Shown: piece by piece, positions 9,794 through 58,476 of the stretch | How positions within the stretch are numbered: position 1 is the stretch's first letter | Layout: the number at the start of each line of letters is the position of its first letter | From: a virus | Length of the DNA: 64,000 nucleotides | IMG/VR virus record: IMGVR_UViG_3300033388_007160 | Span: 1-64,000 of that record | Strand: one strand, 5' to 3' | Program-made: the position numbers and the translations under genes | The notes under the pieces: generated by a model | What the model was told of the DNA's origin: nothing | The model's database searches: none | What the model saw: only the letters and a program-made list of their open reading frames with translations

Positions 9794-10616
9794 CTTGGGG
9801 CCCAAGCTGGTTCGGCTCTTTTCGGGTTGGCTGATAGTTTCTGAGTTTGCCATAGGCCAGGACAGCTATTACTCGCAGACTTTAGCCTATGGCGGCCATG
9901 TGATATATCCCACAACGCGCATAGATTGGGTAGTCTTCAATGAGCAACGGGCCTATGCTGTGCAGGCCAAGCTGAAGTGGAATAAGACACTGATTAGCCA
10001 GGCCGAAGCCGCAAACGAAGTCTTCCCTTTGGTCTATCTGCTGGTTCCCACGCCACCCAGTCGCAGGATAATAGAATCTTATGGCCTTGATACGGAAAGA
10101 AGGCACTTCGGCATCATCGCAGAAGAGGACGGCGACCTATTTATTGTTCGGGAACCGATTTTCCATTTCAAGGGCCGATACAGCGAACATGCCTATTGGA
10201 AGCGAGCCTACCCTCATCTTTATAATGAGCTTTACCGGTGGCTTGCTTGGCAAACAGAGGAATATCCCCTGTGCCGCTACAAATGGTCTTTGCATAATGG
10301 TTACATTTGTCCATTCTTGAGAGCTGATGGGCATTGTGCATGGCAGCATCCGCCTGTCGGAGCGTATGGTGGTTGTGCCCTGCGCAATTATGCCCTTGGC
10401 TACAATCCGCGAGCAGATTTTCTTGAACTTGTCCATTTGTATGAAGAGACTTGTCGCCAGCACGGCAGGCCGGTTATCCTTTATCTCGATGACCAGGCCA
10501 AAGAACGCCTTCGCCAGTACAAGAAACTTTGTGCCTATTTAGAGGCAGCAACGATTTTGCACCGATTCATCTCAAGGAGTGCTAATGCAGATGGCGAAAA
10601 TTCCCGTGAGGCTTAG
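9756..10616 (+). CDS. Possible PD-(D/E)XK nuclease-like protein with a Cys cluster
   Basis: 286 residues. 'RIDWVVFN' followed by 'AVQAKLKW' (about residues 50-77) has the spacing of a PD-(D/E)XK core, with Gln in place of the usual Glu before the Lys. Four spaced Cys (~174, 188, 197, 209) surround a 'CPFLRADGHC' segment and could bind metal or an Fe-S cluster. It might act on DNA during packaging or maturation. The start lies within the preceding gene. Weak call: the fold cannot be verified by eye. Confidence 0.5.
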   Translation: MSVSSSSATSEADLGPKLVRLFSGWLIVSEFAIGQDSYYSQTLAYGGHVIYPTTRIDWVVFNEQRAYAVQAKLKWNKTLISQAEAANEVFPLVYLLVPTPPSRRIIESYGLDTERRHFGIIAEEDGDLFIVREPIFHFKGRYSEHAYWKRAYPHLYNELYRWLAWQTEEYPLCRYKWSLHNGYICPFLRADGHCAWQHPPVGAYGGCALRNYALGYNPRADFLELVHLYEETCRQHGRPVILYLDDQAKERLRQYKKLCAYLEAATILHRFISRSANADGENSREA

Positions 10617-11631
10617 GGGGCCCTTCTCCGGCCTTACCGGATATGGCCGTTGCTTCTGTGGCGTTGTCAAGCACCTGCTGAAATCCCGGCGCTTGGCCGT
10701 GGAAGTTTTATCGCTCTACAATAATCCTCAGCCTTCTGCCGACCCCGAACTTGTTGCCCAGAGTGGCATACGATTTGATGTGCGGCATTGGGGATTGCTT
10801 TTTGGTATTCCGCCGTTGTTGCCCTCACTGGGCACGGAGTATCGGGTTATCTATACGATGTATGAGGCCGATGATATCCCTCGGCAATGGCGAACTTATG
10901 TTAAACAAGCCGATGAGATTTGGGTGCCTTCCCAGCACTGTGCCGAGGTATTTGGTGCATACAATCCCAGAATCAGAGTCGTCCATCTTGGTGTCTCAGA
11001 GTTCTTCAGGCCCACACAGCTCGACAAGAGGTATTACCGTCAGAAACTGGGCTTCCATGAAGACTGGCGAGGATACTGGATTGGCACGGCGGGCGTGATG
11101 TCTCATCGCAAAGGTGTTGATGTGCTTGTTCGGGCCTTCAGGGAAGCATTTGGCACGCAAAGCGATGTAAAGTTGCTCATCAAGACAAGAGATACCAAAT
11201 GGCTGCTGCCGATAGACGACCCTCGTGTCATTGTGATAGATGAAGACTGGCCCGAAGAGAAGATGCGTGATTTTTACTGGGCGCTCGACCTGTTTGCCCT
11301 GCCAAGTCGGGGAGAGGGCTTTGGGATGCCACCACTTGAAGCGGCGCGTTGTGGCACACCTGCTTTAGTTACAGCATGGAGTGGAATGCTGGAATACATT
11401 GATAACGATGGCATTTGGGGTATTGAAGTGGCCGGACTGGTGCCTACCAGAGGCATGGCTGCCGACCATGCCTATTATGCGGAACCTGATTTAGCAGATT
11501 TCATTGACAAGCTTCGCTTCTTATACGAAAATAGGCCCGGAGTCGGACGAAGCTATAACTACTGGACGTATCGGGAAGCTGCCAAGCGTTTCGAGAAGGC
11601 GATACTTGAGTCCATCCGGCTCCGGAGATAG
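10585..11631 (+). CDS. Glycosyltransferase, family GT4
   Basis: 349 residues, GT-B type. Typical features: 'IYTMYEADDIP', 'DEIWVPSQHCAEVF', 'GTAGVMSHRKGVDVLVRAF' and the donor-binding 'PSRGEGFGMPPLEAARCGTP' segment with the conserved E-x7-E. It should transfer a nucleotide-activated sugar in the cytoplasm; donor and acceptor are unknown. The start at 10585 has AAGGAG 5-6 bases before it. It sits between unknown genes and the head-tail connector genes, one of several glycan genes scattered through the structural region. Confidence 0.88.
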   Translation: MQMAKIPVRLRGPFSGLTGYGRCFCGVVKHLLKSRRLAVEVLSLYNNPQPSADPELVAQSGIRFDVRHWGLLFGIPPLLPSLGTEYRVIYTMYEADDIPRQWRTYVKQADEIWVPSQHCAEVFGAYNPRIRVVHLGVSEFFRPTQLDKRYYRQKLGFHEDWRGYWIGTAGVMSHRKGVDVLVRAFREAFGTQSDVKLLIKTRDTKWLLPIDDPRVIVIDEDWPEEKMRDFYWALDLFALPSRGEGFGMPPLEAARCGTPALVTAWSGMLEYIDNDGIWGIEVAGLVPTRGMAADHAYYAEPDLADFIDKLRFLYENRPGVGRSYNYWTYREAAKRFEKAILESIRLRR

Positions 11632-12333
11632 ATGGACCAAGCCACCATCATTGAGAGGATTCGGGCCAGAGGTATAACAACTTCAGATATATCGGATGAC
11701 GAACTGGGCACCCTCATCACTTCGGCCCTGAACTGGTATAGTTACTACCGGCCTGCTGTAAAGCTTACCACCACTTCAAGCTGCATCACCACCGTGGCCG
11801 ACCAGCAGGCCTATGACCCTCCAAGCGATGCTCTCTGGGTTGTAGAAGTCTTCTGGAATCCCACCGGCCAGTATGCCATACAGGACCTTTATCGGGCACT
11901 GCTGGGCGTGCAGTTTGACCCCGACCATTACGCGGATGTGGTGATAAATCTCAGCCAGTTGGCCCGTATTAACAGTTATTTCAGGGGCCGCTGGAAGGTA
12001 GTTGATGGCAAGATTTACCTCATCCCCACACCTGCGGAAGATGGTGTCAAGGTTCCGGTTCTCTATGCCACGGCCAAAACATTGAGTGATTTGGATGAAG
12101 TGAAAGATATCTGGTTTGAAGAACTGGTCTATGCAATGGCCCTTGAACGGAAAGCGCTCAATATGACTTCGCAGGCTGGTTGGCGTGCCGGGGCCTATCA
12201 GGTTTCAGCCCAACCTGCTGTGGTTATGGCTAAATGGGCCCAGCAGCGTATACAGGAAGTCCGGCAGGCTATTGCAAACAATTATGCGGCTGCCCGTAGC
12301 GATAGCCGTGGCGGCGGCCATGAAGAGACATGA
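11632..12333 (+). CDS. Probable head-tail connector (adaptor) protein
   Basis: 233 residues starting immediately after the GT4 stop. 'ALNWYSYYRP' near the N-terminus, a strand-rich middle and a helical, Arg-rich C-terminus resemble adaptor proteins that attach below the portal ring. The position just before the stopper-like gene supports this. Family membership is inferred from layout as well as sequence. Confidence 0.6.
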   Translation: MDQATIIERIRARGITTSDISDDELGTLITSALNWYSYYRPAVKLTTTSSCITTVADQQAYDPPSDALWVVEVFWNPTGQYAIQDLYRALLGVQFDPDHYADVVINLSQLARINSYFRGRWKVVDGKIYLIPTPAEDGVKVPVLYATAKTLSDLDEVKDIWFEELVYAMALERKALNMTSQAGWRAGAYQVSAQPAVVMAKWAQQRIQEVRQAIANNYAAARSDSRGGGHEET

Positions 12334-12674
12334 TGCCCCTGCCTCATAGAGTTACTATCAAGCGACCTAAGTGGTCAGATACCCGCCACGAACAGTATCG
12401 GGGCGAAGAGACCGTTGCCACAGATGTGAAAGCCCTCATTTCCCCTGCCGACCGGTCGGTAAGGGCTTTGGAGAACTGGGGCGGTATTGAGCTGTTGCGG
12501 GATACAGTTTTCCTTGAACCCGGTATTGATGTTCGGCGCGGTGATGTTATAATTGATAATGCATCGGGTGATAGATGGCGCGTTATTGAACCGCCAAAAG
12601 TCTTGCAGAATCCGATAACATGGGAAGATGACCACATCGAATGCACAGTTGAAAAGGAGGTTATCGGCCAGTGA
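12330..12674 (+). CDS. Head-tail stopper / head closure protein
   Basis: 114 residues. The pattern 'LPHRVTIKRP', 'VKALISPADRS', 'GDVIIDNASGDRWRVIEPPK' is typical of the small beta-barrel head-closure proteins (SPP1 gp16 / HK97 gp10 type) that plug the portal channel after packaging. It overlaps the adaptor gene by 4 bases. Confidence 0.7.
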   Translation: MMPLPHRVTIKRPKWSDTRHEQYRGEETVATDVKALISPADRSVRALENWGGIELLRDTVFLEPGIDVRRGDVIIDNASGDRWRVIEPPKVLQNPITWEDDHIECTVEKEVIGQ

Positions 12675-14431: not shown

Positions 14432-15532
14432 ATGAAGATTTTTATCCCTCGCGAACAGCTTGCCTATCCTTCGGGCCGGGGGCCAGAGGTGGCTAGCTAC
14501 CAGCTTCTTGAGGCCGATGAACCTTACCTTGTTAATGCACTGGTTGCAGAACTGCTCCAGCAAAACTCGCCAAAGTCTGAAGTTCGGGATGTGGCCCCTC
14601 GGCCCCCAAGCAAGGATACACGGAAATTACTCATCCTGTTCCCAGGCGGGATAGGCGATGTGCTCTGCATGAAGGCCTGCCTGCAGGCTTTGGATGAACA
14701 GATGCCCTATCCCAACCTGGAAGAAGTTGGTTTTGCCAGTGTGCGGGAAGACGACTGGCTGATTAATGACACGCGCTTTAAGCCCTTCATCCACTTCACG
14801 GTTACTGTCTTTGATTATCCCATCTCGCTAAAAATGGCCGAATATTATGATAGCTGGGTAAGTTACGGCACGCTTGAACGCCAGAGTATCAACAGAGAGT
14901 TGCAGGATACTTTTGCTGAGATTCTTGGCGTCAAGCCTTTGGGGCGGCCCGCACGATTGAACCCTGACCCTGCATTGCAAAGAGTGCTTTCCGGCTATAT
15001 CCGCGACAAGAGTCGCATCAAGGTGGGAATGCAAATCTATTCGGCAGCCCATTATCGTTCTTGGTTCCCTGTCAATGCCGTTTTGACTGCCCAAGAACTC
15101 GTTAAAATGGGCTGTGATGTTTATATCCTCGGCACGCCTACACAGCGTTTGCGCTTCACGAAGGACGGCCAACCGGTTGGGCCACCCGAACATATTTACG
15201 ACATAAGCGGCCTGCTGAGGTCGGTGAAAGAGTTCATTGCCTTCGCAAGCCTAATGGATGCCGTTATCACTGTAGATACGGCCCTGTTGCACATTGCCGG
15301 ATGCTTGTATAAGCCCACTCTGGCCCTATTCAGTATCACACATGGCCGCTACAGGACTTCCTACTATCCTACCGTGGAATACCTGCAGGGCGAAGCAGAT
15401 TGTGCGCCTTGTCTGAACATTGCTACATTGCCGGATTGTGGCGAAAAGTTCTGCAAAGCGATGGTGGCCTTGACGCCCGACATAGTGGTTCCCAAGTTTG
15501 AACAAATTCTGAAGGAGGCTGAATTGCTGTGA
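14432..15532 (+). CDS. Glycosyltransferase family 9 (heptosyltransferase-like)
   Basis: 366 residues. After a ~65-residue extension the GT-B core begins 'LLILFPGGIGDVLCMKACL'; the C-terminal half has 'ITVDTALLHIAGCLYKPTLALF', the GT9 donor-site signature. GT9 enzymes usually transfer ADP-heptose to LPS core. Four C-terminal Cys ('CAPC', 'DCGEKFC') are an extra. Start follows AAAAGGAGGC. The phage also encodes a GmhB-like heptose phosphatase (58.5 kb), consistent with heptose use. Confidence 0.85.
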   Translation: MKIFIPREQLAYPSGRGPEVASYQLLEADEPYLVNALVAELLQQNSPKSEVRDVAPRPPSKDTRKLLILFPGGIGDVLCMKACLQALDEQMPYPNLEEVGFASVREDDWLINDTRFKPFIHFTVTVFDYPISLKMAEYYDSWVSYGTLERQSINRELQDTFAEILGVKPLGRPARLNPDPALQRVLSGYIRDKSRIKVGMQIYSAAHYRSWFPVNAVLTAQELVKMGCDVYILGTPTQRLRFTKDGQPVGPPEHIYDISGLLRSVKEFIAFASLMDAVITVDTALLHIAGCLYKPTLALFSITHGRYRTSYYPTVEYLQGEADCAPCLNIATLPDCGEKFCKAMVALTPDIVVPKFEQILKEAELL

Positions 15533-15777
15533 GAGCCCAGATTGGCGACAAAGTGCGGGTTGAGATTAACGGCAAAACATTTGAGTTTGAGGTAGTGGGC
15601 AGCGGGGATGATACACTTGTCCTGCAGGCCCCAAGAGGCAGCCGCTGGTCACTCAGACTCATCCCGCAGGACGACAACAAGCCCATAGAAATCCAATTTT
15701 ATCAAGTTGATGCCGAAGGGAGACGACGCCTCGATGAGAATCACGCTGATATATCTGACCTACAATTCGGAGTCTGA
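15529..15777 (+). CDS. Small beta-rich hypothetical protein
   Basis: 82 residues, GTG start overlapping the GT9 stop, with GAAGGAGGC upstream. Strand-rich start ('GDKVRVEINGKTFEFEVVG'), acidic C-terminus. It overlaps the next glycosyltransferase by about 44 bases. Unknown function; it may be a structural or decoration protein. Confidence 0.5.
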   Translation: MRAQIGDKVRVEINGKTFEFEVVGSGDDTLVLQAPRGSRWSLRLIPQDDNKPIEIQFYQVDAEGRRRLDENHADISDLQFGV

Positions 15778-16561
15778 AGTTCGGGAGAATTTGCCCCGGC
15801 TACTGCAATCAGCAGGGGCCTACATCAATCTGATAGCAATTGATAATGCCTCGCAGGACGGCACGGTGCAGGCCCTGCGAGAGTTGGGCATAGAACCCAC
15901 AGTTATGCCGGAAAATGTGGGATATACGAAGGGCATTAATATTGGCCTTCAGAAGGCGCTTGAGCTGGCCGCCCCGTGGATAGTCATCGTGAACCCCGAC
16001 GCTGTGCCCTCAACGCCTAACTGGGCACAAGCCTTGTTGAACTACGTAGATACCCGTGTGGGCATTATTGGCTGCAAGCAAGTCAGACGAAACTATCTCA
16101 TTCATGGCGGAGGGGAGATAGCTGCTCATAAACAGTTGCTGAGTTGGTGGCAAGAGTATGATGTGGTCGACCGTAAGCTGCTCGTGAAGGAGGCTATTGG
16201 GGCTTCAAGAGTGCTTCATCGAATGGGCCATCCGGCCCAGTATAACAAAGACGAATATGTGCCCTGGGTGACGTTTGCCGTTGTAGCCCTGCGCAAGGAA
16301 GCCGTCCAAGAAATTGGCCTTCTCAATGAAGAATTTTGGCTTTATTGTTCAGATGCAGAATATTGTTTCAGGGCTTGGCAGGCTGGATGGTTTGTGCTAT
16401 ATAGACCAGTGGTCTTCGTGCATGAATGCGGCACCTCGATACGACGGGCACCCGATTGGGTGCATGAGCGAGCAATCGCTGATGCAAAAAGATGGTTACA
16501 AATTGAAGATGACTGGATAGCCAAAGTCCAGAAAGCTATGGCGGCATTGTTGCCGCCGTGA
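15734..16561 (+). CDS. Glycosyltransferase family 2
   Basis: 275 residues, GT-A fold. 'ITLIYLTYNSESEVRENLP', 'IAIDNASQDGT', 'ENVGYTKGINIG' and the 'NPDA' metal site are classical GT2 features; 'SDAEYCFRAWQAGW' is the acceptor-side motif of rhamnosyl/galactosyl-type GT2 enzymes. The ATG at 15734 is chosen over upstream starts within the preceding gene because of GAAGGGAG ahead of it. It lies directly before the tail tube gene. Confidence 0.88.
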   Translation: MRITLIYLTYNSESEVRENLPRLLQSAGAYINLIAIDNASQDGTVQALRELGIEPTVMPENVGYTKGINIGLQKALELAAPWIVIVNPDAVPSTPNWAQALLNYVDTRVGIIGCKQVRRNYLIHGGGEIAAHKQLLSWWQEYDVVDRKLLVKEAIGASRVLHRMGHPAQYNKDEYVPWVTFAVVALRKEAVQEIGLLNEEFWLYCSDAEYCFRAWQAGWFVLYRPVVFVHECGTSIRRAPDWVHERAIADAKRWLQIEDDWIAKVQKAMAALLPP

Positions 16562-26144: not shown

Positions 26145-26681
26145 ATGGTGCTGATGGCCTATGCAGTTGACCCTGTAACCCTGAGGAATTACGTGCGGCT
26201 TACCAACCGGCGCAAGATGCCCGAAGAGGAACTGCCTGAAGTTGAGTTGCCCGACAACGTTAAGATTGGCCCCACGGATAACTTGGGTAACATCCGGCAG
26301 AAGGCCATGCGGGCCTTGATAACCTTCCTCTCGTCTGAACCCAAACCGATAGAAGAAGGCAGGTATGTCTGGATTGAAACAGCTCTACTGCCTATCATCG
26401 CCATTGACCCTACTAACTACCAGATGGCTCTGCGGCATTTTGCTGACCAAGTGCAAAAGCTAAATATCTCAGCAGTGCGGGGTTACTGGTTCAAACCCAG
26501 CGAGTGGCAAGGGACTCGTCATTGGATACCGCCTTACTGGTTTACAGATTGGTCGGCCACGCTGATTCATGGATGCTTCGAGGAAGGGTATCACGAGTGG
26601 GAAGTACGGTCTCTTAAAGGCCAAAAGCGAAAAGAAACGAATTCAACCGAGGAGTGTAGCAAATATCACAAATGCACATGA
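26145..26681 (+). CDS. Hypothetical tail-region protein
   Basis: 178 residues, ATG at 26145 with GGAGG nine bases before it (the ATG at 26136 directly abuts that site). Proline/Trp-rich in its second half ('GTRHWIPPYWFTDW'). Lies between tail-fibre type genes and overlaps the membrane glycosyltransferase gene. Not recognised. Confidence 0.5.
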   Translation: MVLMAYAVDPVTLRNYVRLTNRRKMPEEELPEVELPDNVKIGPTDNLGNIRQKAMRALITFLSSEPKPIEEGRYVWIETALLPIIAIDPTNYQMALRHFADQVQKLNISAVRGYWFKPSEWQGTRHWIPPYWFTDWSATLIHGCFEEGYHEWEVRSLKGQKRKETNSTEECSKYHKCT

Positions 26682-27967
26682 AAACACCGATTAAAAAGCT
26701 GCTTGTGGCCCTTCGTTACTTACAGACCATATTCTCGCGCCGCGATGTGCTTTTCTCCATAGCCATGCTTGCCGCGCTGTATGGCGCCTGGCCCGCTCTC
26801 GAGGAAGCATTCACACAGCCGGACTTTTCCCGGAACTGGCAGCAGGATTGCGACCTGGTCCTCATTCACAAAGGCCTGGTGGAACATCCGCGTTTCAGGG
26901 ATACGCTGCAGTGGTGGACAGGGACATGGGTGGGGCAGGTGCCGTTCTGGAGGCCACTTACATCACTGCTGTTCTGGCTGGAATGGAAGTTGTTTGGGTG
27001 GGAGTTTCAAGATGCATGGATGCTGGTGCACGGATTGCTGCATCTAGCTACTTGTGCAGCGCTGTTTGTTTTCGCCGACACATTTACGGGGAGTGCAACT
27101 ATAGCCGCACTATCGGTAGCCTTCTTCTCGTTGCCGGGTCCGCTGCTTCCGTACGGCTTGCGGCTCTGGCATTCACGGGCATTCTGGGCGCTGTGGAGCT
27201 GGAAGGACCAGCCAGATTTGTTGCTGGGCTTGCTGACCATCGGCTCGTGTGCGCTCGCCCTCAGACGCCGAACGGTTTCCGCGCTGGCGCTGGCTACTAG
27301 TGCCGCAATGACCAAGGAAACGGGCTTCGTCACGCTGCCGCTCGCGGGGGCCTTCCTTCAGCTTGCAGGGCGTGCCATCGGCCCTGCTCTCGGCGCGTTT
27401 GCCACTGTGATTTTGCTGGCGATAGCAAAGCTGAAGGCTACTGGCTTGGGATTCATCCTCGGAGCAAACATCCACTGGCCGGCTCGCTTGCTGTTGACAA
27501 TCGGTGGTCTACCCTTGGCCAAGTTGGTGGGAGCGACATCTGGATATTGCGTGCTTGGGCTGACTGCGGCTGTAGCGCTTGTCTGGGCACGACCTTTGCG
27601 CTGGCTCGCTGCTTTCTGCGGAACAGCAATTGCCTGCGCCGTTCAGGCAGTCACACTTGCCAACACAGACGAGTCGCCGCCGTGGATTGTGGCCATCGTT
27701 GGTTTGTTCGACTGGAATCTTATATGCACCACTCTACCGGTAGCCGTATGGGTCGTCGTGGCCGCCTTCGGGGCTAGCAAGCAGGCTTTGTTGTCGGCTT
27801 TGGCCTATGCGGCGCTTGCGGCCCCTCCGGCGCTGGCACCCCAAGCTCTATCCCATGCTTATTACACAGCGTGGTGTTTTAGTGCAATAGCTATCGCGAC
27901 TGCTTGGTGGTGTACATGTCAAAGGTTAAGACTAACGTCTGGCTGCCGCAGCAGACTTACAACGTGA
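26672..27967 (+). CDS. GT-C-type membrane glycosyltransferase
   Basis: 431 residues with roughly 10 membrane segments. After the first one comes a loop with acidic residues and the 'FWRPLTSLLFWLEWKLFGW' pattern followed by a 'VHGLLHLATCAALF' helix, as in Tmtc/PMT-like GT-C enzymes, which take sugars from a polyprenyl phosphate carrier. Sequence is distinctly richer in GC than the flanking tail genes, suggesting transfer from elsewhere. Placed between tail genes; its 3' end overlaps the fibre gene by 52 bases. The acceptor could be the host envelope or phage proteins. Confidence 0.7.
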   Translation: MHMKTPIKKLLVALRYLQTIFSRRDVLFSIAMLAALYGAWPALEEAFTQPDFSRNWQQDCDLVLIHKGLVEHPRFRDTLQWWTGTWVGQVPFWRPLTSLLFWLEWKLFGWEFQDAWMLVHGLLHLATCAALFVFADTFTGSATIAALSVAFFSLPGPLLPYGLRLWHSRAFWALWSWKDQPDLLLGLLTIGSCALALRRRTVSALALATSAAMTKETGFVTLPLAGAFLQLAGRAIGPALGAFATVILLAIAKLKATGLGFILGANIHWPARLLLTIGGLPLAKLVGATSGYCVLGLTAAVALVWARPLRWLAAFCGTAIACAVQAVTLANTDESPPWIVAIVGLFDWNLICTTLPVAVWVVVAAFGASKQALLSALAYAALAAPPALAPQALSHAYYTAWCFSAIAIATAWWCTCQRLRLTSGCRSRLTT

Positions 27968-30900
27968 CGCTGCGGCTTCTCAATCAAAACCTCACGATCA
28001 ATACGCTTTCTTCGCCCACTAAGCGCATCTATATTAATGCGCTCGGCAGTGCCGAGATTGCATTTGACGAAGACCTGCGCACTGTGTTGGGGCCCGCGCC
28101 CGACGATCCGCCGAGCGACCCTCCCGTACCAGGCTACGTGTGGGTCGGCGTTTACTGGGTATTTAAGCTCACGATCACCGCCCCTGGAGAAACACCTTCA
28201 GCCCCTAATACGGCAACGGTAGACTTGTTCATCTGGACAGGAACAGGCACGTGGGTCATGGCACCGCAAGAACTGCCGGACGGATGGGTGAGTCAGACGG
28301 GTAGCATGGACATCAACGTGCGCATTGAGGTCACTGGCGTGTACATGAAGGCCGAAACTAACGAGGAAGCCATCTATAGCAACGGAGGCATAATGGCTTT
28401 TGTGGAAAGAAGTTATACCGAGAGCTGGTTCGCGGATGAGAATGCAAGCGTCACCGTCACTGCGGTCGGCCCTAGCGGTGAGCAACTTTCCGTCTCAGGT
28501 CCACTAGCTGACGCCGGACAGGAAGTTGAATTTGCTGCTGGCTGGAAACTCAACTTCGGGTGGACTATCCACCGTTACGACTATGAAGATGTTGTGTACG
28601 CGGCTGTTAGCGACATCGCCATATGCGAGATACCATTGGACCTCGGCAGGTTAGACCTTTACCGTCCAGGTAGCAACGTGCCTGACAGCACGCAACCCGA
28701 GTGGGGCCGCACGAAGACCCAAGACGACTGCTGTCGCGTCGGCCAAGCCGAAGGAGGAGCAGCTACTTGGCGTGAAGGGGAAGGCTGCGGCGGCGATATA
28801 TCGTGGCGCGGCGCCGTCGGCATGCCCGTTCATGTCCACTTCAAACCGCGCACACATAAGCACGCTGATGACGTTGACTACCCCGACATCCTGGTCACGG
28901 GCACGCCCATTAATTGGCAATATGATGAAGAGTCAGGCACCTACGTATCCGTTCCTGTCCAGTGGACAGGTGAACTCGAAGTCGTCCAGCAGGAGAAGAG
29001 CTGGGAATTTGACTGGGAGTGGAGAACGCTTTCGTCGTTGAAGCAATTCGTCAATGTGGTGCGCGATTGGCAAAAAGACCACGGAGAAGATGTTGGCAGC
29101 GACGATGATCCCAATCTTAATGCGCAGGCCTGCCCGTTGCTTACCCATCCCCGTTCGGTAAGCAATCTGGAAGGCGACCCCACTGAAGAGTGGGGCACAG
29201 GTGTGACCGTATCTCATGAAGGTGAGAAAGCTGTATTCAAGCCGCCTGATGTATCTCGTCCGGGCAACTGGACGGGTTCCGGTGGGCTTACGCCCGATGC
29301 CAGTGTGGGAGATAATAACGACATCTGGCATGTTGCTGCTGGTTCTACGGCCCCCACGGCCACTATGGTTATCCGCGAACGAAAGACTTCCCGCTTGGCT
29401 CGTGTTGTGGCACAAGACCCTGACCTGCCAAGTGAAATGAAACATCGCAACTTAATCATCTTGAATCGGGCAAATGTTGATACTTGGACGGAAGGCGGCA
29501 GCGATTATCTTGATCCTGAGGATGAGCGGTATCCCGAACATATCTGGCACTGGATGAATTACAGTTACGCCAAACTACGGATTAAGGCCCCAATGAGTGG
29601 CACAATTCGCATGACGGTTGACTATAAGTATCCAATGATTTTTGACCCCGGCTATCCGACACTGGAACCCGGTGAACTGACCGTAGACTGGATTGAAAAG
29701 ACGGTCGTATATGAAGGGCACGTCGAGAAAACTCCGGAAGGGGCTGACTACTCTGAAGTTGTCTTTGACTTGGCCTGCCCCAAGGAAGGCGAAATTGCCC
29801 CTCGGCTCTACCTCGTAACACGAGTTACCTTGCAATTGCCGCCACACACAGAAGACCTCACTTGGGAAATTGACGATCTCTATCTGCTGCCTTCGTATGT
29901 AGACGGCTCTTGGGGCGTATCAATGCCGCCATGGTTTCAACTTCGGGTTTATGACCCGTGGGACTTCCTGTCGGATTATACGATGTTTGCGGGCTTGGTC
30001 GGCGGAGTGAAATGCTTGGATATTCCTTATGGTTGGGAAGAACTTGAGCGGTATGAAAGGAGCTTGAAAGGCCGCCGTAAATGGCGTTCGCGGAATGAAG
30101 AAGTTTACTTCATGGACCATTCTCGGCCACTCAGCGAATTGGCAAGCGACTTGTCATGGCAGGAAGGTTGGCAGGCGACGTATCATGAGCCGGAAGAAAG
30201 CACTGTCAACAAAGATGAAGATGGCAATAAACTGTTCCCCCAGTTCTACTGGTGGGACTTGCTACGTTCGCATGAATATACGGCCAACCCAGGTGATACT
30301 ATCGAGCTGAAGCTATGTCCCATTGTGCGTTATTGGGAAGTGGTGGCAGGCATCAAACATGTAATCTACTACGAGAAATTCTTCCAAGGTCGTATTCACG
30401 GCATTGTAGTTAAGACTGACCGGTCGGGACGCATCCGGAAAGACCTTGAAGTGGAAGGCTACCGGCGGCCTTCTGAGGGAGGCGAATGGGCGAAAGTTGA
30501 TGAAACACCTGTAGATGGTCATGGGCGCTATCGTTTGGGGCCCTACCTTGAGAAAGGATATGACTATAAAGTCAGCGTCAACAGCAATTACATCACTGGC
30601 GTCGCCAACGCCAGATATTCGTGGATATCGGGAACTGGCATCGTCGGACCTGTGGGCGGTGCCATCTCGGCCACTGGCCCCCTCACCGAAATGGTGCATA
30701 TCGCCTATACGGATAACGACAACTATGCCGTGAAGCATCTGTTCACTTCACCAGGCGACCAGTGGTTTATTGGCCACATTCCTCAAGTGCCCTACGAACA
30801 GCCGAATACCGTGGTAGACGCCCCGGCCCAAGGCCTAGCACTGTATCATGACATGTCCCGAAGGCTTCACTTGTTCACCGTAGAAGATGGCACTATAATC

Positions 30901-31236
30901 CATTATGAATCACAGGACTGGGGCAAAACTTGGGTATCGCAGACCATGGTGACTACAATCAAAGGCCAAGCGGTTGCTGCAACTCTGTTAGCAGGCATCA
31001 CTACATTCTTGTTTGTCGTAGACGAAGACAACAAATTGGTATGTTATCGCAGTTGTGACCATTTCAAGACACATTGTGAGGGGCCATGGACGGTAACAAC
31101 GGGCGTAGATGCTGTTCAACCAGCCTGCTACAATGCTCTTGTTAGGTTGTATGTCTATTGCTTTAAGGACGGCACACTCTACTGCTATCGGAGTGATGAC
31201 GCTGGCAAGACTTGGGTTGAGGTGGGCAGCGCATGA
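27916..31236 (+). CDS. Large tail fibre / receptor-binding protein with Asp-box repeats
   Basis: 1106 residues, starting inside the end of the membrane glycosyltransferase gene (ATG 27916, GGTGG ahead). Beta-rich throughout. Near residue 825 a 'RIHGIVVKTDRSGRIRKDL' segment resembles a carboxypeptidase-regulatory-like fold. The C-terminus carries sialidase-type Asp-boxes: 'ESQDWGKTWVS', a degenerate 'RSCDHFKT', and 'RSDDAGKTWVE'. This suggests a beta-propeller that binds or cuts glycans. The first ~1.3 kb has the GC-rich composition of the preceding gene; the rest looks like the phage. Confidence 0.72.
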   Translation: MSKVKTNVWLPQQTYNVTLRLLNQNLTINTLSSPTKRIYINALGSAEIAFDEDLRTVLGPAPDDPPSDPPVPGYVWVGVYWVFKLTITAPGETPSAPNTATVDLFIWTGTGTWVMAPQELPDGWVSQTGSMDINVRIEVTGVYMKAETNEEAIYSNGGIMAFVERSYTESWFADENASVTVTAVGPSGEQLSVSGPLADAGQEVEFAAGWKLNFGWTIHRYDYEDVVYAAVSDIAICEIPLDLGRLDLYRPGSNVPDSTQPEWGRTKTQDDCCRVGQAEGGAATWREGEGCGGDISWRGAVGMPVHVHFKPRTHKHADDVDYPDILVTGTPINWQYDEESGTYVSVPVQWTGELEVVQQEKSWEFDWEWRTLSSLKQFVNVVRDWQKDHGEDVGSDDDPNLNAQACPLLTHPRSVSNLEGDPTEEWGTGVTVSHEGEKAVFKPPDVSRPGNWTGSGGLTPDASVGDNNDIWHVAAGSTAPTATMVIRERKTSRLARVVAQDPDLPSEMKHRNLIILNRANVDTWTEGGSDYLDPEDERYPEHIWHWMNYSYAKLRIKAPMSGTIRMTVDYKYPMIFDPGYPTLEPGELTVDWIEKTVVYEGHVEKTPEGADYSEVVFDLACPKEGEIAPRLYLVTRVTLQLPPHTEDLTWEIDDLYLLPSYVDGSWGVSMPPWFQLRVYDPWDFLSDYTMFAGLVGGVKCLDIPYGWEELERYERSLKGRRKWRSRNEEVYFMDHSRPLSELASDLSWQEGWQATYHEPEESTVNKDEDGNKLFPQFYWWDLLRSHEYTANPGDTIELKLCPIVRYWEVVAGIKHVIYYEKFFQGRIHGIVVKTDRSGRIRKDLEVEGYRRPSEGGEWAKVDETPVDGHGRYRLGPYLEKGYDYKVSVNSNYITGVANARYSWISGTGIVGPVGGAISATGPLTEMVHIAYTDNDNYAVKHLFTSPGDQWFIGHIPQVPYEQPNTVVDAPAQGLALYHDMSRRLHLFTVEDGTIIHYESQDWGKTWVSQTMVTTIKGQAVAATLLAGITTFLFVVDEDNKLVCYRSCDHFKTHCEGPWTVTTGVDAVQPACYNALVRLYVYCFKDGTLYCYRSDDAGKTWVEVGSA

Positions 31237-32000
31237 GCCTCACATATCATCAGCAGGTTGATAGGCCTTACACCTTCGGCGAGACAAGCAAACAGGTCAC
31301 CAAATCTCGCCTCAATCACAATTTTGACATCTTGGCAAACAACGACCAGAACATTGAAGACCGCTTTGAGAATACGTTTGATAGCCTATTTGGTGGCGGC
31401 GTCATCACAGGCATGGAGGCCACCATAGGGACGGGCCTGAGCATACAGGTCTCCGAGGGTAAGGCACTGATTGGCTGTGAGATTAGCTGGCCCGGCGGCA
31501 CTGTAGCAGTTCTCGCTAATGCCAATCCTGGCTATATCTTCTTTTGCCATGATGGCACCTGGCACGTAGATACCGATAATACGCCTCCCGACGATAAAAG
31601 CAGCTTCCTCTATGCGACATACGTAAGCGACGCTTCTTCTGTCACAAGTGTAACAGTTGTGGGCAAGCTGGTGCTGCCCAAGCTTATTGAGGTCAGTGAT
31701 ACGCATGAGGATTTGGTTGTGGCCGGGGATTATCTTGACGTGCATATTGACCACAGTTCCCAAGCCAGCTTCGTAATACCGGGCTTCATCCAGCTCAAAG
31801 TTGAGCCTTCGGATGCCTTCTACGTGGAGCACCTTTACAAGGGCGGCATCACCGACGACAGCGACACAGAAGAAGACGTGCCATATGAGGATACTCCGAC
31901 GGGATTTTGGGTAAGAATATACAGAAGGGAAGGTTACTATTATGAGGACAACCCGACGGTTACCTTGACATGGAAGAGATGGGGCTTCGCTTATGGCTAA
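31233..32000 (+). CDS. Tail appendage / baseplate-like protein
   Basis: 255 residues, ATGA overlap with the fibre gene. N-terminal 'SRLNHNFDILANNDQNIEDR' then 'GGGVITGMEATIGTGLSIQV', a layout common in phage tail-fibre attachment or upper baseplate proteins. Beta-rich C-terminus. It probably helps attach the receptor-binding protein. Confidence 0.6.
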   Translation: MSLTYHQQVDRPYTFGETSKQVTKSRLNHNFDILANNDQNIEDRFENTFDSLFGGGVITGMEATIGTGLSIQVSEGKALIGCEISWPGGTVAVLANANPGYIFFCHDGTWHVDTDNTPPDDKSSFLYATYVSDASSVTSVTVVGKLVLPKLIEVSDTHEDLVVAGDYLDVHIDHSSQASFVIPGFIQLKVEPSDAFYVEHLYKGGITDDSDTEEDVPYEDTPTGFWVRIYRREGYYYEDNPTVTLTWKRWGFAYG

Positions 32001-34059: not shown

Positions 34060-34993
34060 TATAACACACACGGCCAACTTTGGAGACTGGATGGTGGGCC
34101 AGTTTTTGCGCTTCTGGCTGGCCGAAAACTGCCCTAGCATACAGACACGATACCTAACAAGCGTGCCAAATACCCGTGGTGTATGGCTGAATGATAGGTT
34201 CTTTGAGGACTGGGACTGGCCGACGCACATACTGATTTTCGGCGGCTCGGTATGGTATGACGACCGCCGTTGGGTGTATGAACATGACTGGCTTGAGCGT
34301 CTACAGGACAATCAAAGGCTTTGCATCTGGGGCGGCATCCAAGTGCCCTTCACTCATCAAGAGAAGGTTAGGCCAGTTCTGGCGCGGGCTGATTTGGTCT
34401 TGACGCGTTTTGAAAGCGAAATACCCGTCCTCAAGGAACATTGCAGTGATGCCCACATAATGGTGGGCAGTGACCTTTGCTTCCTGCAAACGATAAAATG
34501 GAAGCCCAAGACGGGGCCTGCGGTGATTGCAGGCCACCTCATCAAAGAATTTGAACCATATCAATCGCTGTGGGTAGAGACATTGCGTTCTGCTTTGGGC
34601 TGCCAAGTCAGGATTGCGGGTGTTTGTTGTTTGGACGGCACACCGGCAACCAATCCCTGGGTTGTGCCCTTCCCAATGTTCTGGAATTGGCTGTTTGATT
34701 GCTGTCTGGCCGCTTGCACAGCCCTTCATGCAGGCATCCTCGCAGCAGCCATGTGCACGCCGCTTGTCTTAATTGACTTGCAGGGAAGGCCGATGAGCAA
34801 GTATCGCTTCATGGGCTTGGAATTCGAGTCGGTGACGGGTTTCTATCCTACTGTCAGGCCTTCTGAACCGACGCCCGAAGTTGTTCAGGCAGCATATGAA
34901 TTGCCATTCGCCCTGCGTGAAGAATATGCTAAACTTAAAGCAGAACAGGCCCGAAGGGGACTGGGGGAGCTGAGGGCATGGCTGACGAGCTAA
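34022..34993 (+). CDS. Polysaccharide pyruvyltransferase-like protein
   Basis: 323 residues. 'ANFGDWMVGQFLRFWLAE', 'ILIFGGSVWYDDRRW', 'CIWGGIQVPF', 'ARADLVLTRFESEI' and 'VGSDLCFL' correspond to the CsaB-type pyruvyltransferase family, which adds pyruvate ketals to surface sugars using phosphoenolpyruvate. The start at 34022 lies within the GT4 gene. Third gene of the glycan cassette. Family resemblance is good; substrate unknown. Confidence 0.7.
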   Translation: MPDYSKVRLLIHDITHTANFGDWMVGQFLRFWLAENCPSIQTRYLTSVPNTRGVWLNDRFFEDWDWPTHILIFGGSVWYDDRRWVYEHDWLERLQDNQRLCIWGGIQVPFTHQEKVRPVLARADLVLTRFESEIPVLKEHCSDAHIMVGSDLCFLQTIKWKPKTGPAVIAGHLIKEFEPYQSLWVETLRSALGCQVRIAGVCCLDGTPATNPWVVPFPMFWNWLFDCCLAACTALHAGILAAAMCTPLVLIDLQGRPMSKYRFMGLEFESVTGFYPTVRPSEPTPEVVQAAYELPFALREEYAKLKAEQARRGLGELRAWLTS

Positions 34994-49084: not shown

Positions 49085-49087
49085 AAG

Positions 49088-51878: not shown

Positions 51879-52102
51879 AACCAACACAGAAGCCCTATGA
51901 ATTCCTCGCCGAGAAGCTTCAATGGTATAAGATGAAGGCCAAAGAGTTGAGAATGGCCGTCTCTAGGCTAAAGGAAGGGGTAGAGAATCCACTGCTGTTA
52001 GCAGGCCTGGAAGTGCTGGATAAACTCGCCCGTGATGTGCTCTCTTGGTGCGAATACCGTGACTATCCACCATCCCTTAGGAGTGCGAATATTGCTCGAT
52101 AA
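51875..52102 (+). CDS. Small hypothetical protein
   Basis: 75 residues, helical, AAAGGAGAGATTAAA ahead of the ATG. It overlaps the phosphatase stop by 4 bases. Function unknown. Confidence 0.5.
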   Translation: MKPTQKPYEFLAEKLQWYKMKAKELRMAVSRLKEGVENPLLLAGLEVLDKLARDVLSWCEYRDYPPSLRSANIAR

Positions 52103-52184
52103 TGCAGGATACGGTTGGGACCCGCCCTATTATGATACCTACGACGAGGCCCGTGATGACGGTAGTTGGAGTGAGACCGTTTAA
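52083..52184 (+). CDS. Possible 33-aa acidic peptide
   Basis: 33 codons from a GTG at 52083, rich in Asp, Tyr and Trp ('GWDPPYYDTYDEARDD'), like other proteins of this phage. Overlaps the end of the preceding gene. The start has only a short AGGA before it, so it is marginal. Confidence 0.3.
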   Translation: MRILLDNAGYGWDPPYYDTYDEARDDGSWSETV

Positions 52185-52253
52185 GCTATTTGAGGACGCT
52201 GTTAAGATATGGGCCGAGCAATCGCGAGAATGTTAATGAGGGAGGCGACGAGT

Positions 52254-52748
52254 ATGTCCTCACTTGTTGCAGATTGGTGGTGTGTTTGCCTAAAGGAACA
52301 ATATGGTAGTGTGTCGTTCAGACCAGAGGGTGACGAAGTGCTTTTAAACCTGTGTCCTTCCACACCCGATTGGCATGACATCGTGCTAAGCATAAGCAGA
52401 AAAGACTGGATGCTAGAGTTGACACATAAGGTAGAAGCCGACTCGCCAAGTATTCTGCCTTGGGAAGTTCGGATTGATGCTGGGGCCAACGTTCGAGTCT
52501 GTGCCTATCGGCCTATTACCGGTTTGTGCTGTGGTTTGGCAGTACGACAAGTCAGCGAGGAGTTGTGTACTGCTGCTATTGGTGTTTCTCCTCCACTACA
52601 GGCGATTGTTGTTGCGGTACATCGCCAAGACGGCCTTATCTTGCTTGAGCATCCGATTAATATTGATGATGTATTCGTTCTTGCGAGTTACTTAGACGAA
52701 ATAGCAAAGCGCTATCGAGCATACGGATTTACAATTGAGAAAAGCTAA
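52254..52748 (+). CDS. Hypothetical beta-rich protein
   Basis: 164 residues. ATG 52254 is preferred: GAGGGAGG lies nine bases ahead. Several Cys and strands; no known motif. It lies just before a GC-rich, foreign-looking block. Confidence 0.5.
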   Translation: MSSLVADWWCVCLKEQYGSVSFRPEGDEVLLNLCPSTPDWHDIVLSISRKDWMLELTHKVEADSPSILPWEVRIDAGANVRVCAYRPITGLCCGLAVRQVSEELCTAAIGVSPPLQAIVVAVHRQDGLILLEHPINIDDVFVLASYLDEIAKRYRAYGFTIEKS

Positions 52749-52768
52749 GTGGTCAACGGTGAGGTGCG

Positions 52769-53932
52769 ATGCCGAAGGCGACGATAACGGTTATGCGCGT
52801 GGGGCACAGGGATAGCGACGCGGGCAAGCGGGCGCCAAGCGAGCTGCTGATAGTGACGCCCCAGGGGATAGGGGATGCGCTGATAGCGGCGACTGTGGGG
52901 TATCACTGCGAGGCTGCGGGCATAGCGACGGCGATACGGCGGGAGATACGGGGCGAAGCGGCGGTGCGCGGATGGAGCGTATCGGATTTTGATGTTAGTG
53001 AGCTGGAGTTGTTACCGTTGCTATCGGGGAGCGGGCGTGGTGAGGTGTTTCGGTTGGCGGGGCGCAGGAGCTTTGCGTGGCATGATGCGAGCGGCGGGGC
53101 GATGCTGGATAGGCTGCTCGCGGAGATTGGGTTGGAGCGGCAGGCGGCGCCTGCAACGGCGATGATAGGGGCGGATATCGAGCGGATGGAGATTGGCGGA
53201 GGCCACGGGATAATAGCGCCGTGGAAGCACAGCGCGCCAGAATACAGTATGAGCAAGGAGCAAGTAGCGGCTGCGGCTGCGGAGATGCGGGCGGCAGGCT
53301 TGATACCGGTGGTAGTGCACAGCGAGCGCGTAGACTTGGGTGGAGTAGATGCGGTGAATTGGACGGGGCAAACGCGGACGGTGCGAGAACTGCTACCGTT
53401 GCTCGCTGCGGCGCGGGTTGTTGTGACGGCGGATAATGGCATTTTGCACGCGGCGCAGGCGATGCAGGTGCCGACGGTTGCTGTGGCGAGCAGGCGCACG
53501 ATAGCGCCGGAGGCGTTTAGGGATTACGCGCCGATACTGTGGTGCATGGCGCGGGGCGAAACGCGAGCGGTGCGCGAGCGCACGATAATGCTCGCAGTGC
53601 GAGCGATGCTGAAGGCAAGCGAGGCGAGGTGGTGTATAGCGGGGCCGGAGCGCTATCTGTGTGGTGTGGAGCAGGCGGGGCGGCGGGTAGCGCGGGCGGC
53701 AGGGGTGTTTTACGCGAGGATGGACGCGGACGCGATTGCAGAAGCGGATGCGGTGATCGTCGAATATCATCCGTATTATCACGATGATTGGGCGGCTGTG
53801 TTTGAGGAGCTGCGTGCTCGCGGTTGGCAGGGGGAGATAATTTGGAGCGTGCACAAGGCGGCGGACTTGACGCGCGAGGGGCGGCAGGCGGAGATAGCGG
53901 AATTGGAGGTTGTTGGCGAGCATGGCGGATAA
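52769..53932 (+). CDS. GT9-like glycosyltransferase, N-terminal half of a GC-rich split pair
   Basis: 387 residues. 'LLIVTPQGIGDALIAATVGYH' is the GT9 N-terminal loop; 'VVVTADNGILHAAQAMQVPT' is the donor site. After ~280 residues there is a second segment ('ADAVIVEYHPYYHDDW') that looks like the start of another GT-B domain. Codons are strongly GCG/GGC-rich, unlike the neighbouring genes. Its end overlaps the next GT gene (ATG 53922 inside the stop region), which looks like the missing C-terminal half. Confidence 0.65.
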   Translation: MPKATITVMRVGHRDSDAGKRAPSELLIVTPQGIGDALIAATVGYHCEAAGIATAIRREIRGEAAVRGWSVSDFDVSELELLPLLSGSGRGEVFRLAGRRSFAWHDASGGAMLDRLLAEIGLERQAAPATAMIGADIERMEIGGGHGIIAPWKHSAPEYSMSKEQVAAAAAEMRAAGLIPVVVHSERVDLGGVDAVNWTGQTRTVRELLPLLAAARVVVTADNGILHAAQAMQVPTVAVASRRTIAPEAFRDYAPILWCMARGETRAVRERTIMLAVRAMLKASEARWCIAGPERYLCGVEQAGRRVARAAGVFYARMDADAIAEADAVIVEYHPYYHDDWAAVFEELRARGWQGEIIWSVHKAADLTREGRQAEIAELEVVGEHGG

Positions 53933-54437
53933 GGAACGCGCGCTGGTATTGATGGAGCATTGCGATGATGCGGGCGGAACGCAGGCGCTGCTCACGGGGG
54001 TTGACTACTTTTTGCGAGGGCGATGGAGCGAGCAGGAGCTGCAGCGGGCTTTGCAGCAGGCGGATATATTCGTGTATGCGGATGATGTGGACGAACCCGA
54101 CCAATCGGCTGCGGCGGCGGATGTGTTGGGGTTCGGGCGCCCCGTGGTAGTATCGGGCTGCAGGAAACATGCGGATGTGTTGCCGTGGTGCGTGCAAGCG
54201 AAGGGGGCGCAGGAGATAGCTGAGCGAGTATTGTGGCTGCTGAGCAATGCTGCTGCATACCAGCGGGCGGGGCTACGGGCGCTGCAGGGAGCGAGCTTTC
54301 GGCGGCAACGGGTGCTCGCGCGGCAGTATCGGGCGGCGGTTGTCCATGTTTTGGCGAGGCGATACTTGCGGGATTATCGTGGCGCAGGGGGGAATACTGG
54401 CCCTAAGCGAGCGGTCGAACATGAACGCGATGGATGA
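53922..54437 (+). CDS. GT4-like C-terminal glycosyltransferase fragment
   Basis: 171 residues. 'LQRALQQADIFVYADDVDE' and 'AADVLGFGRPVVVSGC' match the donor half of GT4 enzymes; no N-terminal domain is present. It overlaps the previous GC-rich gene by 11 bases in a +1 frame. Together they could be one GT-B enzyme split by a frameshift, or two coupled proteins. Same GC-rich composition. Confidence 0.5.
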   Translation: MADKERALVLMEHCDDAGGTQALLTGVDYFLRGRWSEQELQRALQQADIFVYADDVDEPDQSAAAADVLGFGRPVVVSGCRKHADVLPWCVQAKGAQEIAERVLWLLSNAAAYQRAGLRALQGASFRRQRVLARQYRAAVVHVLARRYLRDYRGAGGNTGPKRAVEHERDG

Positions 54438-54592
54438 AGCCAGCTACGAAAGTGGAGAGAATGTGGCCGAAGGCTTGCACTGGTACGTGCATGGTTATGG
54501 GCAGAGGCGATGTTGTTGCCGATAGCGCCGCGAGGCCACAACATGGTTTGGGAGACGAACAGAGATTGAATAAAATAGGAGGGGAAACGAAA

Positions 54593-56377: not shown

Positions 56378-56386
56378 ATTACCGCC

Positions 56387-56974
56387 ATGAAGCTAAGTGA
56401 TTGGGCCAAGCAGCAAGGCATCAGTTATCGCACGGCATGGAGATGGTTTAGGCAAGGACGCTTGCCGTGTAGGGCTGAGCAGATGCCTTCGGGGACCATA
56501 TTGGTCTATCCCGATGAGGAAACACAAACAGATGAAGCTGTAGTGATTTATGCTCGTGTTTCGTCCAGCAACCAGCGTGGAGACTTGCAGCGGCAGGTTG
56601 AACGGCTTGTGACTTACGCCAATGCTCGCGGCTGGAGAATTGCGGATATTGTCACAGAGATAGGTTCGGGCCTCAACGGTCGCCGGAAGAAGCTGTTGAA
56701 GCTGTTGGCCGACCCCAATGTTCGCCATATCCTCGTAGAACACCGAGACCGCTTGGCCCGTTTCGGTGTTGAGTTTATAGAGGCAGCGTTGTCTGCCAGT
56801 GGCCGCAAGCTTACGGTGGTAGATGAAACAGAATTCAAAGACGACTTATGGCAGGACTTTGTGGATTTGGTTACCAGCATGGCGGTCCGCATATATGGCC
56901 GTCGAGGCGCACGAAACCGTGCGCAACGTGCTTTAGAGGCCCTGAGGCACGGCGATGACAATCTTAAGGAGTAG
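56387..56974 (+). CDS. IS607-family serine recombinase (TnpA)
   Basis: 195 residues. N-terminal MerR-like helix-turn-helix ('WAKQQGISYRTAWRWFRQG') followed by a serine-recombinase domain 'VVIYARVSSSNQRGDLQRQ' with the catalytic Ser (~58), and 'LVEHRDRLARFGVEFIEA'. Length fits IS607 TnpA. It moves the element with no target duplication. Overlaps tnpB by 20 bases, with a possible regulatory hairpin upstream. Confidence 0.92.
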   Translation: MKLSDWAKQQGISYRTAWRWFRQGRLPCRAEQMPSGTILVYPDEETQTDEAVVIYARVSSSNQRGDLQRQVERLVTYANARGWRIADIVTEIGSGLNGRRKKLLKLLADPNVRHILVEHRDRLARFGVEFIEAALSASGRKLTVVDETEFKDDLWQDFVDLVTSMAVRIYGRRGARNRAQRALEALRHGDDNLKE

Positions 56975-58049
56975 CAAGCTTAGCTTCAAAGAAGCAACGG
57001 AAGCCAAGCTGGCTATCCTGCAGAAGATAGCTGAAGATTACCGTCGTGCCGTTAACTGGTTCATAGACTGGTATTGGCAACACGGCCTCCGCCGCTTTCC
57101 TGAAACCGAAGTAGTCAATGCCTGTCCTGTGGATTGGTTCACTCATCGCATGAAGAAGGTGGCTGCACAGCAGGCCCTTGGTATAGTCCGCGTTGCCTGC
57201 AAGCGAGGCCGGAAAACAAAGCCTGAATATAAGCAGCTTAAGATACAAGCTCAATGCACCATTGCGCGGTTGCGGCAACCCAAAGAGGCCGAGAGCTTTG
57301 ATTACTGGCTTGAGCTGCGGTGCATAGGCAACAAATTACGCTTGGACTTGCCCCTGAAAGCCAACAAACATTTCAACCGCTTCGTAGCTGAAGGCTGGAA
57401 ACAGCATAGTGGACTGCTTATTGATGTAAAGCGACGCACTGTGACGGTAGTATTCGAGAAGGATGAGAAACCTGCAGATGATACGTCACACCCCGTTGCT
57501 GTAGACATCGGGGCAAGTTCATGTCTATTTGCCTGTGCCGACTTTGCCCACGCTGGCTGTCTTGGTCTGCAGATTGGCGACCTTCTACAAAAGGTTGCGC
57601 GGAAACAACATGGCTCCAAGCGCCAGAAGAAAGCTCGACGCCGGTTGAGGCATTACATTGATGAACAAGTCAAGAACCTGCTCAAAGCTTTTCAACCTAG
57701 CTGCGTCGTGGCCGAAAGATTGCATAACGTGCTGCAGCGAACCAAACAAGACCGTAAGCTAAATAAAGCAGTTCGCTGCCTCCTCGGTGGTTGGTGCTAC
57801 CGTTACGCGCTGGAGCGGTTGCGCATGACATGCGAAGTCAACCGTGTTGGCTTCCATGTCGTGCCGCCGCAGTATACCAGCCAGCGGTGCCCAGCCTGCG
57901 GCCACATCGAGGAGTCGAACCGCCGAGGCAGGATGTTTCGCTGTCGGCAATGTGGGTATATTGACCATGCCGACTTAGTGGCCGCCAGAAACATCCTGTG
58001 GCGGTTCACTGAGGAGATTACCGTCCCTCAGGCGGCGGAAGCCGGTTGA
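56955..58049 (+). CDS. TnpB RNA-guided nuclease of the IS607-type element
   Basis: 364 residues, standard size. RuvC-like sites: 'VAVDIGASS' (Asp ~182), 'CVVAERLHN' (Glu ~254) and 'IDHADLVAARNIL' (Asp ~340). Four-Cys zinc finger: 'CPACGHIEES' and 'FRCRQCGYID'. All three catalytic acids look intact, so it may be active. TnpB usually uses a guide RNA encoded at the element's right end. Starts inside the end of tnpA. Confidence 0.93.
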   Translation: MTILRSSKLSFKEATEAKLAILQKIAEDYRRAVNWFIDWYWQHGLRRFPETEVVNACPVDWFTHRMKKVAAQQALGIVRVACKRGRKTKPEYKQLKIQAQCTIARLRQPKEAESFDYWLELRCIGNKLRLDLPLKANKHFNRFVAEGWKQHSGLLIDVKRRTVTVVFEKDEKPADDTSHPVAVDIGASSCLFACADFAHAGCLGLQIGDLLQKVARKQHGSKRQKKARRRLRHYIDEQVKNLLKAFQPSCVVAERLHNVLQRTKQDRKLNKAVRCLLGGWCYRYALERLRMTCEVNRVGFHVVPPQYTSQRCPACGHIEESNRRGRMFRCRQCGYIDHADLVAARNILWRFTEEITVPQAAEAG

Positions 58050-58072
58050 CAATGTTTGACCACGTAACCGGC
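58009..58072 (+). ncRNA. Possible guide-RNA (omega RNA) region at the TnpB 3' end
   Basis: Two hairpins overlap the end of tnpB and follow it: CTGAGG/CCTCAG (58009-58031) and GCCGGTT/AACCGGC (58041-58072). In known TnpB systems the guide RNA scaffold overlaps this region and the guide comes from the DNA next to the right end. Only the hairpins are seen here. Confidence 0.45.
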
Positions 58073-58113
58073 AACGGTCAGATGAGCTTGCCATACGAAA
58101 GGAGGCTAATGAA

Positions 58114-58476
58114 ATGCAAGACTATGTATTTGTGGAATGGCATGGTAGGTTGAGGGCGTTGCTCAGAGTCTTGGCTTCAGTAGAACAAGACTTGAAGGAT
58201 GTGGTGCGTCAAGCGGTAAGCTATGGCGTCGCCCCAGCCCATCAAATCCGCCGTATTGACCGTGCATTCTGGGAGATTACTGATGCTGTGTTTGAGGTCC
58301 TGGAAAACATCGCAGACCGGATTGATGGCCTCGATTTGGAGACGACCATGCAGGCCCTTGAGGCCGAGATTAAAGCCAAAGGCGTAAGCCCGAAACAAAT
58401 ACAGCAGGCCGCGGAAGAAGTTCGGCGCGAGGCTTACGAAGAGAAGTACGGGGAGGGGGAGGCCGGACGTGAATGA
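58114..58476 (+). CDS. Hypothetical helical protein
   Basis: 120 residues, GAAAGGAGGC at the ribosome site. Helical throughout with a charged tail. It overlaps the GTG of the GmhB-like gene. No function known. Confidence 0.5.
   Translation: MQDYVFVEWHGRLRALLRVLASVEQDLKDVVRQAVSYGVAPAHQIRRIDRAFWEITDAVFEVLENIADRIDGLDLETTMQALEAEIKAKGVSPKQIQQAAEEVRREAYEEKYGEGEAGRE

Follow-up and report, generated by a model that had tools for sequence, protein, structure and literature searches.

Dispersed ADP-heptose and glycosyltransferase genes in a phage genome from IMG/VR and a possible route to heptosylated tail proteins

Introduction

What does a phage do with numerous sugar-transferring enzymes whose genes are scattered among those for its neck and tail, which sugar would they transfer and onto what? 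This question is raised by the IMG/VR virus record IMGVR_UViG_3300033388_007160 (86,019 bases), of which positions 1-64000 constitute the window. An earlier note on this window had assigned to the interval 10585-58469 at least nine glycosyltransferase (GT)-like genes and a GmhB-like phosphatase, and had proposed a full pathway that builds or edits a specific glycan. This article describes the sugar genes of the record, among them three GT9 genes and three homologues of ADP-heptose synthesis enzymes. One of the GT9 proteins, GT9b, resembles TibC, a protein O-heptosyltransferase. The favoured reading, to which a probability of about 0.42 is given, is a host-assisted heptose glycosylation system in which GT9b would O-heptosylate a tail or fibre protein.

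Glycosyltransferases and the Predicted Sugar Donor

Two GT4, three GT9 and one GT2 genes named in the earlier note were confirmed by Pfam; all six calls exceed the curated cut-offs, so that chance is no serious explanation for them. The three GT9 genes score 36.2, 31.6 and 29.0 bits with PF01075 (gathering cut-off 22) and all have the GD motif with the catalytic Asp (GIGD in GT9a); the D-x-x-x-x-H motif is kept in GT9a (DTALLH) and GT9c.

The best NCBIfam models of three separate genes represent steps of ADP-heptose synthesis, namely GmhB, HldE domain II and HldE domain I. The GmhB-like phosphatase is well supported (Table 1) and keeps DRDGT, NQSGVAR and CPHHP..C.CRKP when aligned to the E. 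coli K-12 enzyme. The HldE-type adenylyltransferase and kinase, the most informative genes of the set, were missed by the interval of the earlier note; only the C-terminal end of the adenylyltransferase (63974-64000) is inside the window. Compared with E. coli K-12 HldE, the adenylyltransferase keeps IKGGDW, its HxGH motif reading TPNH, and the kinase keeps GDSFLD, GGAANVA and GAGD.

The first 114 bases of the record recur as its last 114 in an exact direct repeat (window 1-114 and L003 5907-6020) and the portal reading frame runs on through this junction; the record, listed as linear in IMG/VR, is therefore taken to be a complete genome of ~85.9 kb that closes into a circle. Anywhere in this closed record, no homologue of GmhA (SIS_2 or other SIS-domain match) and none of HldD (NAD epimerase-family match) was found. 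The HldD epimerase is needed for L,D-heptose only and, since it was not found, ADP-D,D-heptose is the expected product; the donor can thus be predicted from the gene content. The idea of a full pathway for a specific glycan gains support for heptose from the HldE-type genes at and beyond the end of the window, the GmhB homologue and the three GT9 genes. The pathway is not a full one, however: homologues of GmhA and HldD are missing from the genes found, the GT4 and GT2 enzymes have no recognised genes for making their donors, and the proposed GT-C protein is unproven.

GT9b and Its Likeness to TibC

The natural donor of TibC is ADP-D,D-heptose; its catalytic or sugar-binding residues are Asp-110, Trp-305, Arg-286, Lys-230 and Thr-226, and the protein carries iron-finger cysteines (339, 342, 358 and 370) and an N-terminal beta-barrel (PMC4358343). 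A phmmer search of the PDB with GT9b returned TibC only (4e-4), and GT9b reaches TIGR04414, the autotransporter O-heptosyltransferase family, at 1.3e-4. That model was reached by none of four other viral GT9s, which match models of the lipopolysaccharide (LPS) type only. GLGD in GT9b is equivalent to the site of the TibC catalytic Asp-110, and DTGVAW places a Trp at the Trp-305 sugar site, where WaaC and WaaF carry His. Four C-terminal cysteines are present, with a CX2C aligned to the TibC iron finger and a different spacing (CX2C-X15-C-X11-C in TibC, CX2C-X8-C-X9-C in GT9b). GT9a (CX2C-X8-C-X4-C) and other viral GT9s share the four-Cys pattern, so that cysteines by themselves are no mark of the TibC type.

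An AlphaFold2 (AF2) model of GT9b built from eight viral GT9s (mean pLDDT 57.5, pTM 0.51) predicts an N-terminal beta domain at about residues 17-66 (pLDDT mostly 75-87), smaller than that of TibC (~50 versus 97 residues). In a Foldseek search with this model the top 21 matches were all TibC (E 9e-9 to 2e-6), followed by WaaF (2e-6) and WaaC (6e-5).

Placement Among the Tail Genes

The genes called in 8023-37548 are all on the + strand, with no gap larger than 73 nt, and include GT4a, GT9a, GT2, GT9b, GT4b and the pyruvyltransferase-like gene together with neck and tail genes; gene order thus bears out the scattering between neck, tail and accessory genes that had been described before. GT4a lies among the neck genes, GT9a and GT2 stand on either side of small tail genes, and GT9b, GT4b and the pyruvyltransferase-like gene form an overlapping run after two putative tail-fibre genes. 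On account of the unbroken packing, the GT genes of this array are probably expressed late, with the virion structural genes. The second putative fibre gene overlaps the first by 4 nt and adjoins GT9b; its protein gave zero profile matches. Portal, protease-major head protein fusion, head closure and tape-measure genes were identified by PHROGs.

Proposed Host-Assisted Heptosylation of the Tail and Its Alternatives

Tail-gene packing and the TibC-like features favour heptosylation of the virion, specifically of the tail. The host GmhA would supply D-glycero-D-manno-heptose 7-phosphate, and the GT9 enzymes of the phage, synthesised along with the tail, would transfer heptose; GT9b, whose gene comes immediately after that of a putative tail fibre, would O-heptosylate a tail or fibre protein, and GT4, GT2 and GT9 partners may lengthen or vary the glycan. 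The enzyme activities, the supply of heptose 7-phosphate by the host, the tail acting as acceptor and the use of D,D- over L,D-heptose are what we infer, and the proposal is much firmer on the donor pathway than on the acceptor. A bolder form of the proposal, namely viral protein O-heptosylation in which a host intermediate is turned into ADP-D,D-heptose and a TibC-like transferase decorates the phage's own tail fibre, the mechanism of autotransporters being reused in a virus, is regarded as rather unlikely.

Several points weigh against tail heptosylation. All NCBIfam scores for ADP-heptose enzymes and heptosyltransferases are under the curated equivalog cut-offs, which makes these proteins homologues and not certified equivalogs; the kinase matches TIGR02198 weakly (26 bits, cut-off 345) and gave no PDB match, and GT9 membership does not fix the donor sugar. 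GT9b fits the WaaC model slightly better than TIGR04414 (4.6e-5 versus 1.3e-4), has Leu in the alignment where TibC has Arg-286, and shows no clear aligned counterpart of Lys-230 (nor of Thr-226). Its AF2 model is poor overall, with all TM-scores below 0.5, and by this measure is closer to WaaF (0.44) than to TibC (0.39); the subfamily call, drawn from sequence and model, is for these reasons suggestive and not proven. As its TIGR04414 score is 21.1 bits against a family cut-off of 200, GT9b is described as TibC-like and is not filed as a member of the bacterial autotransporter heptosyltransferases (BAHT). The acceptors are candidate tail proteins named by gene position, and a membrane GT, if the GT-C call is real, would point to the envelope over the virion.

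The enzymes could act on the host surface, ADP-heptose and the phage GT9, GT4 and GT2 proteins altering, while the infection lasts, the core of LPS or some other glycan of the envelope in order to block superinfection or to stop new virions adsorbing to debris; this tentative reading is the main rival. The classic heptosyltransferases of the LPS core, WaaC and WaaF, belong to GT9; the two are also the best PDB matches of a viral GT9 profile, and GT9a and GT9c retain the LPS-type His, whereas GT9b is nearest to TibC. Comparable cassettes in cyanophages are annotated as LPS synthesis (PMC7378029) and a possible membrane GT is encoded at 26672; the GTs, however, lie inside the tail-gene array, with probable late expression, and the record has no HldD, whereas LPS enzymes usually take L,D-heptose.

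That the sugar genes form no single pathway, being morons acquired independently for unrelated jobs, some of them decaying and none cooperating, is improbable, since homologues for three distinct steps of ADP-heptose synthesis together with three GT9 genes within 86 kb make a pointed combination and the motifs are intact. It would account for the separation of the kinase (HldA-type) and adenylyltransferase (HldC-type) genes, which lie on opposite strands with 12.9 kb between them, against less than 1.5 kb in 29 of the 33 other viral records having both, and for GT4c being only a half-domain. The GT9c-GT4c pair, moreover, lies near an IS607-type element in a stretch of odd composition (window 52001-54500), and the local rise in GC content (0.58) with strong GC skew (0.30) suggests a recent acquisition.

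Glycosylation of modified bases in the phage DNA is highly improbable: phage GTs are capable of it (reviewed in PMC12619734) and the record encodes two N4/N6 DNA methylases, but no thymidylate-synthase-fold (ThyA) or TET/JBP hydroxylase homologue was found in the record, and the GTs sit with the tail genes, away from those of DNA metabolism.

Other Sugar Genes of the Record

The GT4-like fragment (GT4c) and the pyruvyltransferase-like protein of the earlier note match PF13692 (21.5 bits, cut-off 27) and PF04230 (16.6 bits, cut-off 25.3) only below the curated cut-offs. Searches of Pfam and the PDB with the polytopic membrane protein that had been taken for a GT-C enzyme returned nothing, and its AF2 model, made without an alignment, was poor (pLDDT 43); a GT-C identity is unconfirmed.

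Relatives of GT4a were found in Streptomyces phages, Microbacterium phages and archaeal rod-shaped viruses. No N-terminal targeting domain of GT9a or GT9b common to other proteins of the record was found. The start of GT4c overlaps the stop of GT9c at ATGGCGGATAA, with GGAGG upstream; one frameshifted GT9c-GT4c fusion was considered and is disfavoured, as this junction looks like an ordinary stop/start overlap, and a broken fusion remains conceivable from the sequence.

Table 1. Sugar genes and candidate acceptors of the record, in window positions unless marked as record positions.
Feature	Position	Strand	Evidence and remarks
GT4a, neck-gene region	10585-11631 (open frame 10579-11631)	+	PF13692 1e-15; ATG at 10585, AGGAG upstream
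GT9a, heptosyltransferase-family	14432-15532	+	PF01075 5e-9; TIGR02195 2.9e-8
GT2 glycosyltransferase	15734-16561 (open frame 15707-16561)	+	PF00535 1e-12
Putative tail-tube gene, 128 aa	16567-16953	+	Directly downstream of GT2; no PHROGs match
Polytopic membrane protein, proposed GT-C	26672-27967	+	Nine hydrophobic segments
Large putative tail-fibre/tail protein, candidate acceptor	27904-31236	+	After tape-measure and distal tail genes; weak BNR repeat
Putative tail-fibre/receptor-binding protein, candidate acceptor	31233-32000	+	Gene position
GT9b, TibC/BAHT-like	32015-33037	+	PF01075 1e-7
GT4b	33034-34059	+	PF13439 2e-11; 4-nt overlap with end of GT9b
Polysaccharide pyruvyltransferase-like	34022-34993 (open frame 33983-34993)	+	PF04230 E=0.0075, sub-threshold
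GT9c	52769-53932	+	PF01075 8e-7; GT9 domain with DNGILH and C-terminal extension
GT4c, C-terminal-half GT4 fragment	53922-54437 (open frame 53910-54437)	+	PF13692 3e-4, sub-threshold
GmhB-like heptose-1,7-bisphosphate 7-phosphatase (HAD)	58469-59128	+	PRK08942 1.3e-21; PDB GmhB 3e-12
HldE-type heptose-1-phosphate adenylyltransferase	record 63974-64690	-	TIGR02199 2.6e-18, below cut-off; straddles window end
HldE-type kinase	record 77557-78453	+	TIGR02198 4.3e-6; wholly beyond window

Comparison With Other Viruses and Known Systems

Relatives of the heptose adenylyltransferase were found in 138 viral contig stretches and also in cyanophages. Fifty viral records, picked for bearing the adenylyltransferase or a GT9 and thus giving no population frequencies (some may be cellular contamination), contained a GT9 in 25 cases, the kinase in 33 and GmhB in 6; kinase, GmhB and GT9 occurred together with the selecting adenylyltransferase in only two of them (G018 and G019). 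On the IMG/VR contig L095 a GT9 gene and two genes of GT2 type lie upstream of a weak match to Phage_capsid; this is an independent, though weaker, case of GTs sited next to structural genes. On another viral contig (L037, 8515-10191) a methyltransferase domain is apparently fused to a GT9-like domain (559 aa).

With the TibC/Aah BAHT proteins GT9b has in common a GT-B/GT9 core, the GD motif, the sugar-site Trp, the four-Cys finger, a predicted and smaller N-terminal beta domain and a gene beside a candidate surface protein; it differs in being a phage gene, in Arg-286 and in a TIGR04414 score far under the cut-off. One BFVD protein, from an uncultured phage, already carries the annotation Aah/TibC, and TibC-like phage genes are thus not unique to the present record.

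The cyanophage heptose cassettes (Synechococcus phages S-T4 and SynMITS9220M01) likewise include phage-encoded heptose kinase/adenylyltransferase-type genes. That of S-T4 is a contiguous sugar cassette with a phosphoheptose isomerase, and no GT9 match was obtained in this phage; kinase, GmhA and HldD of SynMITS9220M01 are annotated for LPS (PMC7378029). The cyanophage cassettes are contiguous and include GmhA, whereas the genes described here are dispersed, without GmhA or HldD found, and comprise three GT9 genes among tail genes. The LPS inner-core pathway of E. coli (GmhB, HldE, WaaC, WaaF) uses the same families for donor synthesis and transfer but is bacterial, has GmhA and HldD and acts on Kdo2-lipid A. 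Virion glycosylation in mycobacteriophages, where GTs act on capsid and tail-tube proteins (Freeman et al., 2023, cited in the available text of PMC12619734), likewise involves phage GTs, and that text describes no ADP-heptose genes or TibC-like enzyme. The present set of phage sugar genes is a variation on a known theme and no category of its own, and it makes one prediction that lends itself unusually well to testing.

Further Features of the Genome

No close relative of the phage turned up in known phages or viral contigs: its terminase has ~23% identity to known phages over 91% of its length, a megablast search against known phages gave zero matches for the record, and no sister phage was found in viral contigs scanned with the major capsid protein, large terminase, GT9a, GT9b and primase-helicase. 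A scan of genome contigs with the GT9 alignment led to a single locus, in a Marinimicrobia metagenome-assembled genome. A single 987-aa frame (window 4524-7487) encodes the head maturation protease fused to the major head protein (PHROGs 207 and 138).

The IS607-like pair (window 56387-58049), read from the sequence, combines a serine-recombinase-like gene with a downstream TnpB-like one, whose protein had zero relatives in the genome-contig scan. Beyond the window, a protein with TROVE and Ro60-type vWA domains, an RNA-binding Ro60 relative in a phage, is encoded on the - strand (record 74641-76164, L002 11642-13165; PF05731 3.4e-14), and a carbon-nitrogen hydrolase of the nitrilase superfamily (record 80051-80971, L002 17052-17972; PF00795 3e-7) adjoins the gene of a LamG-like putative tail protein.

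Implications

Phage genomes are full of GTs whose donor and acceptor are unknown; for the present set the donor is predictable. With one GT that has a characterised protein-modifying relative and with neighbouring tail genes as likely acceptors, phage GT function becomes directly testable. In animals ADP-heptose also acts as an innate-immune signal (PMC10948575, PMC10269868). Heptosylation of the virion, if true, would extend protein O-heptosylation to viruses.

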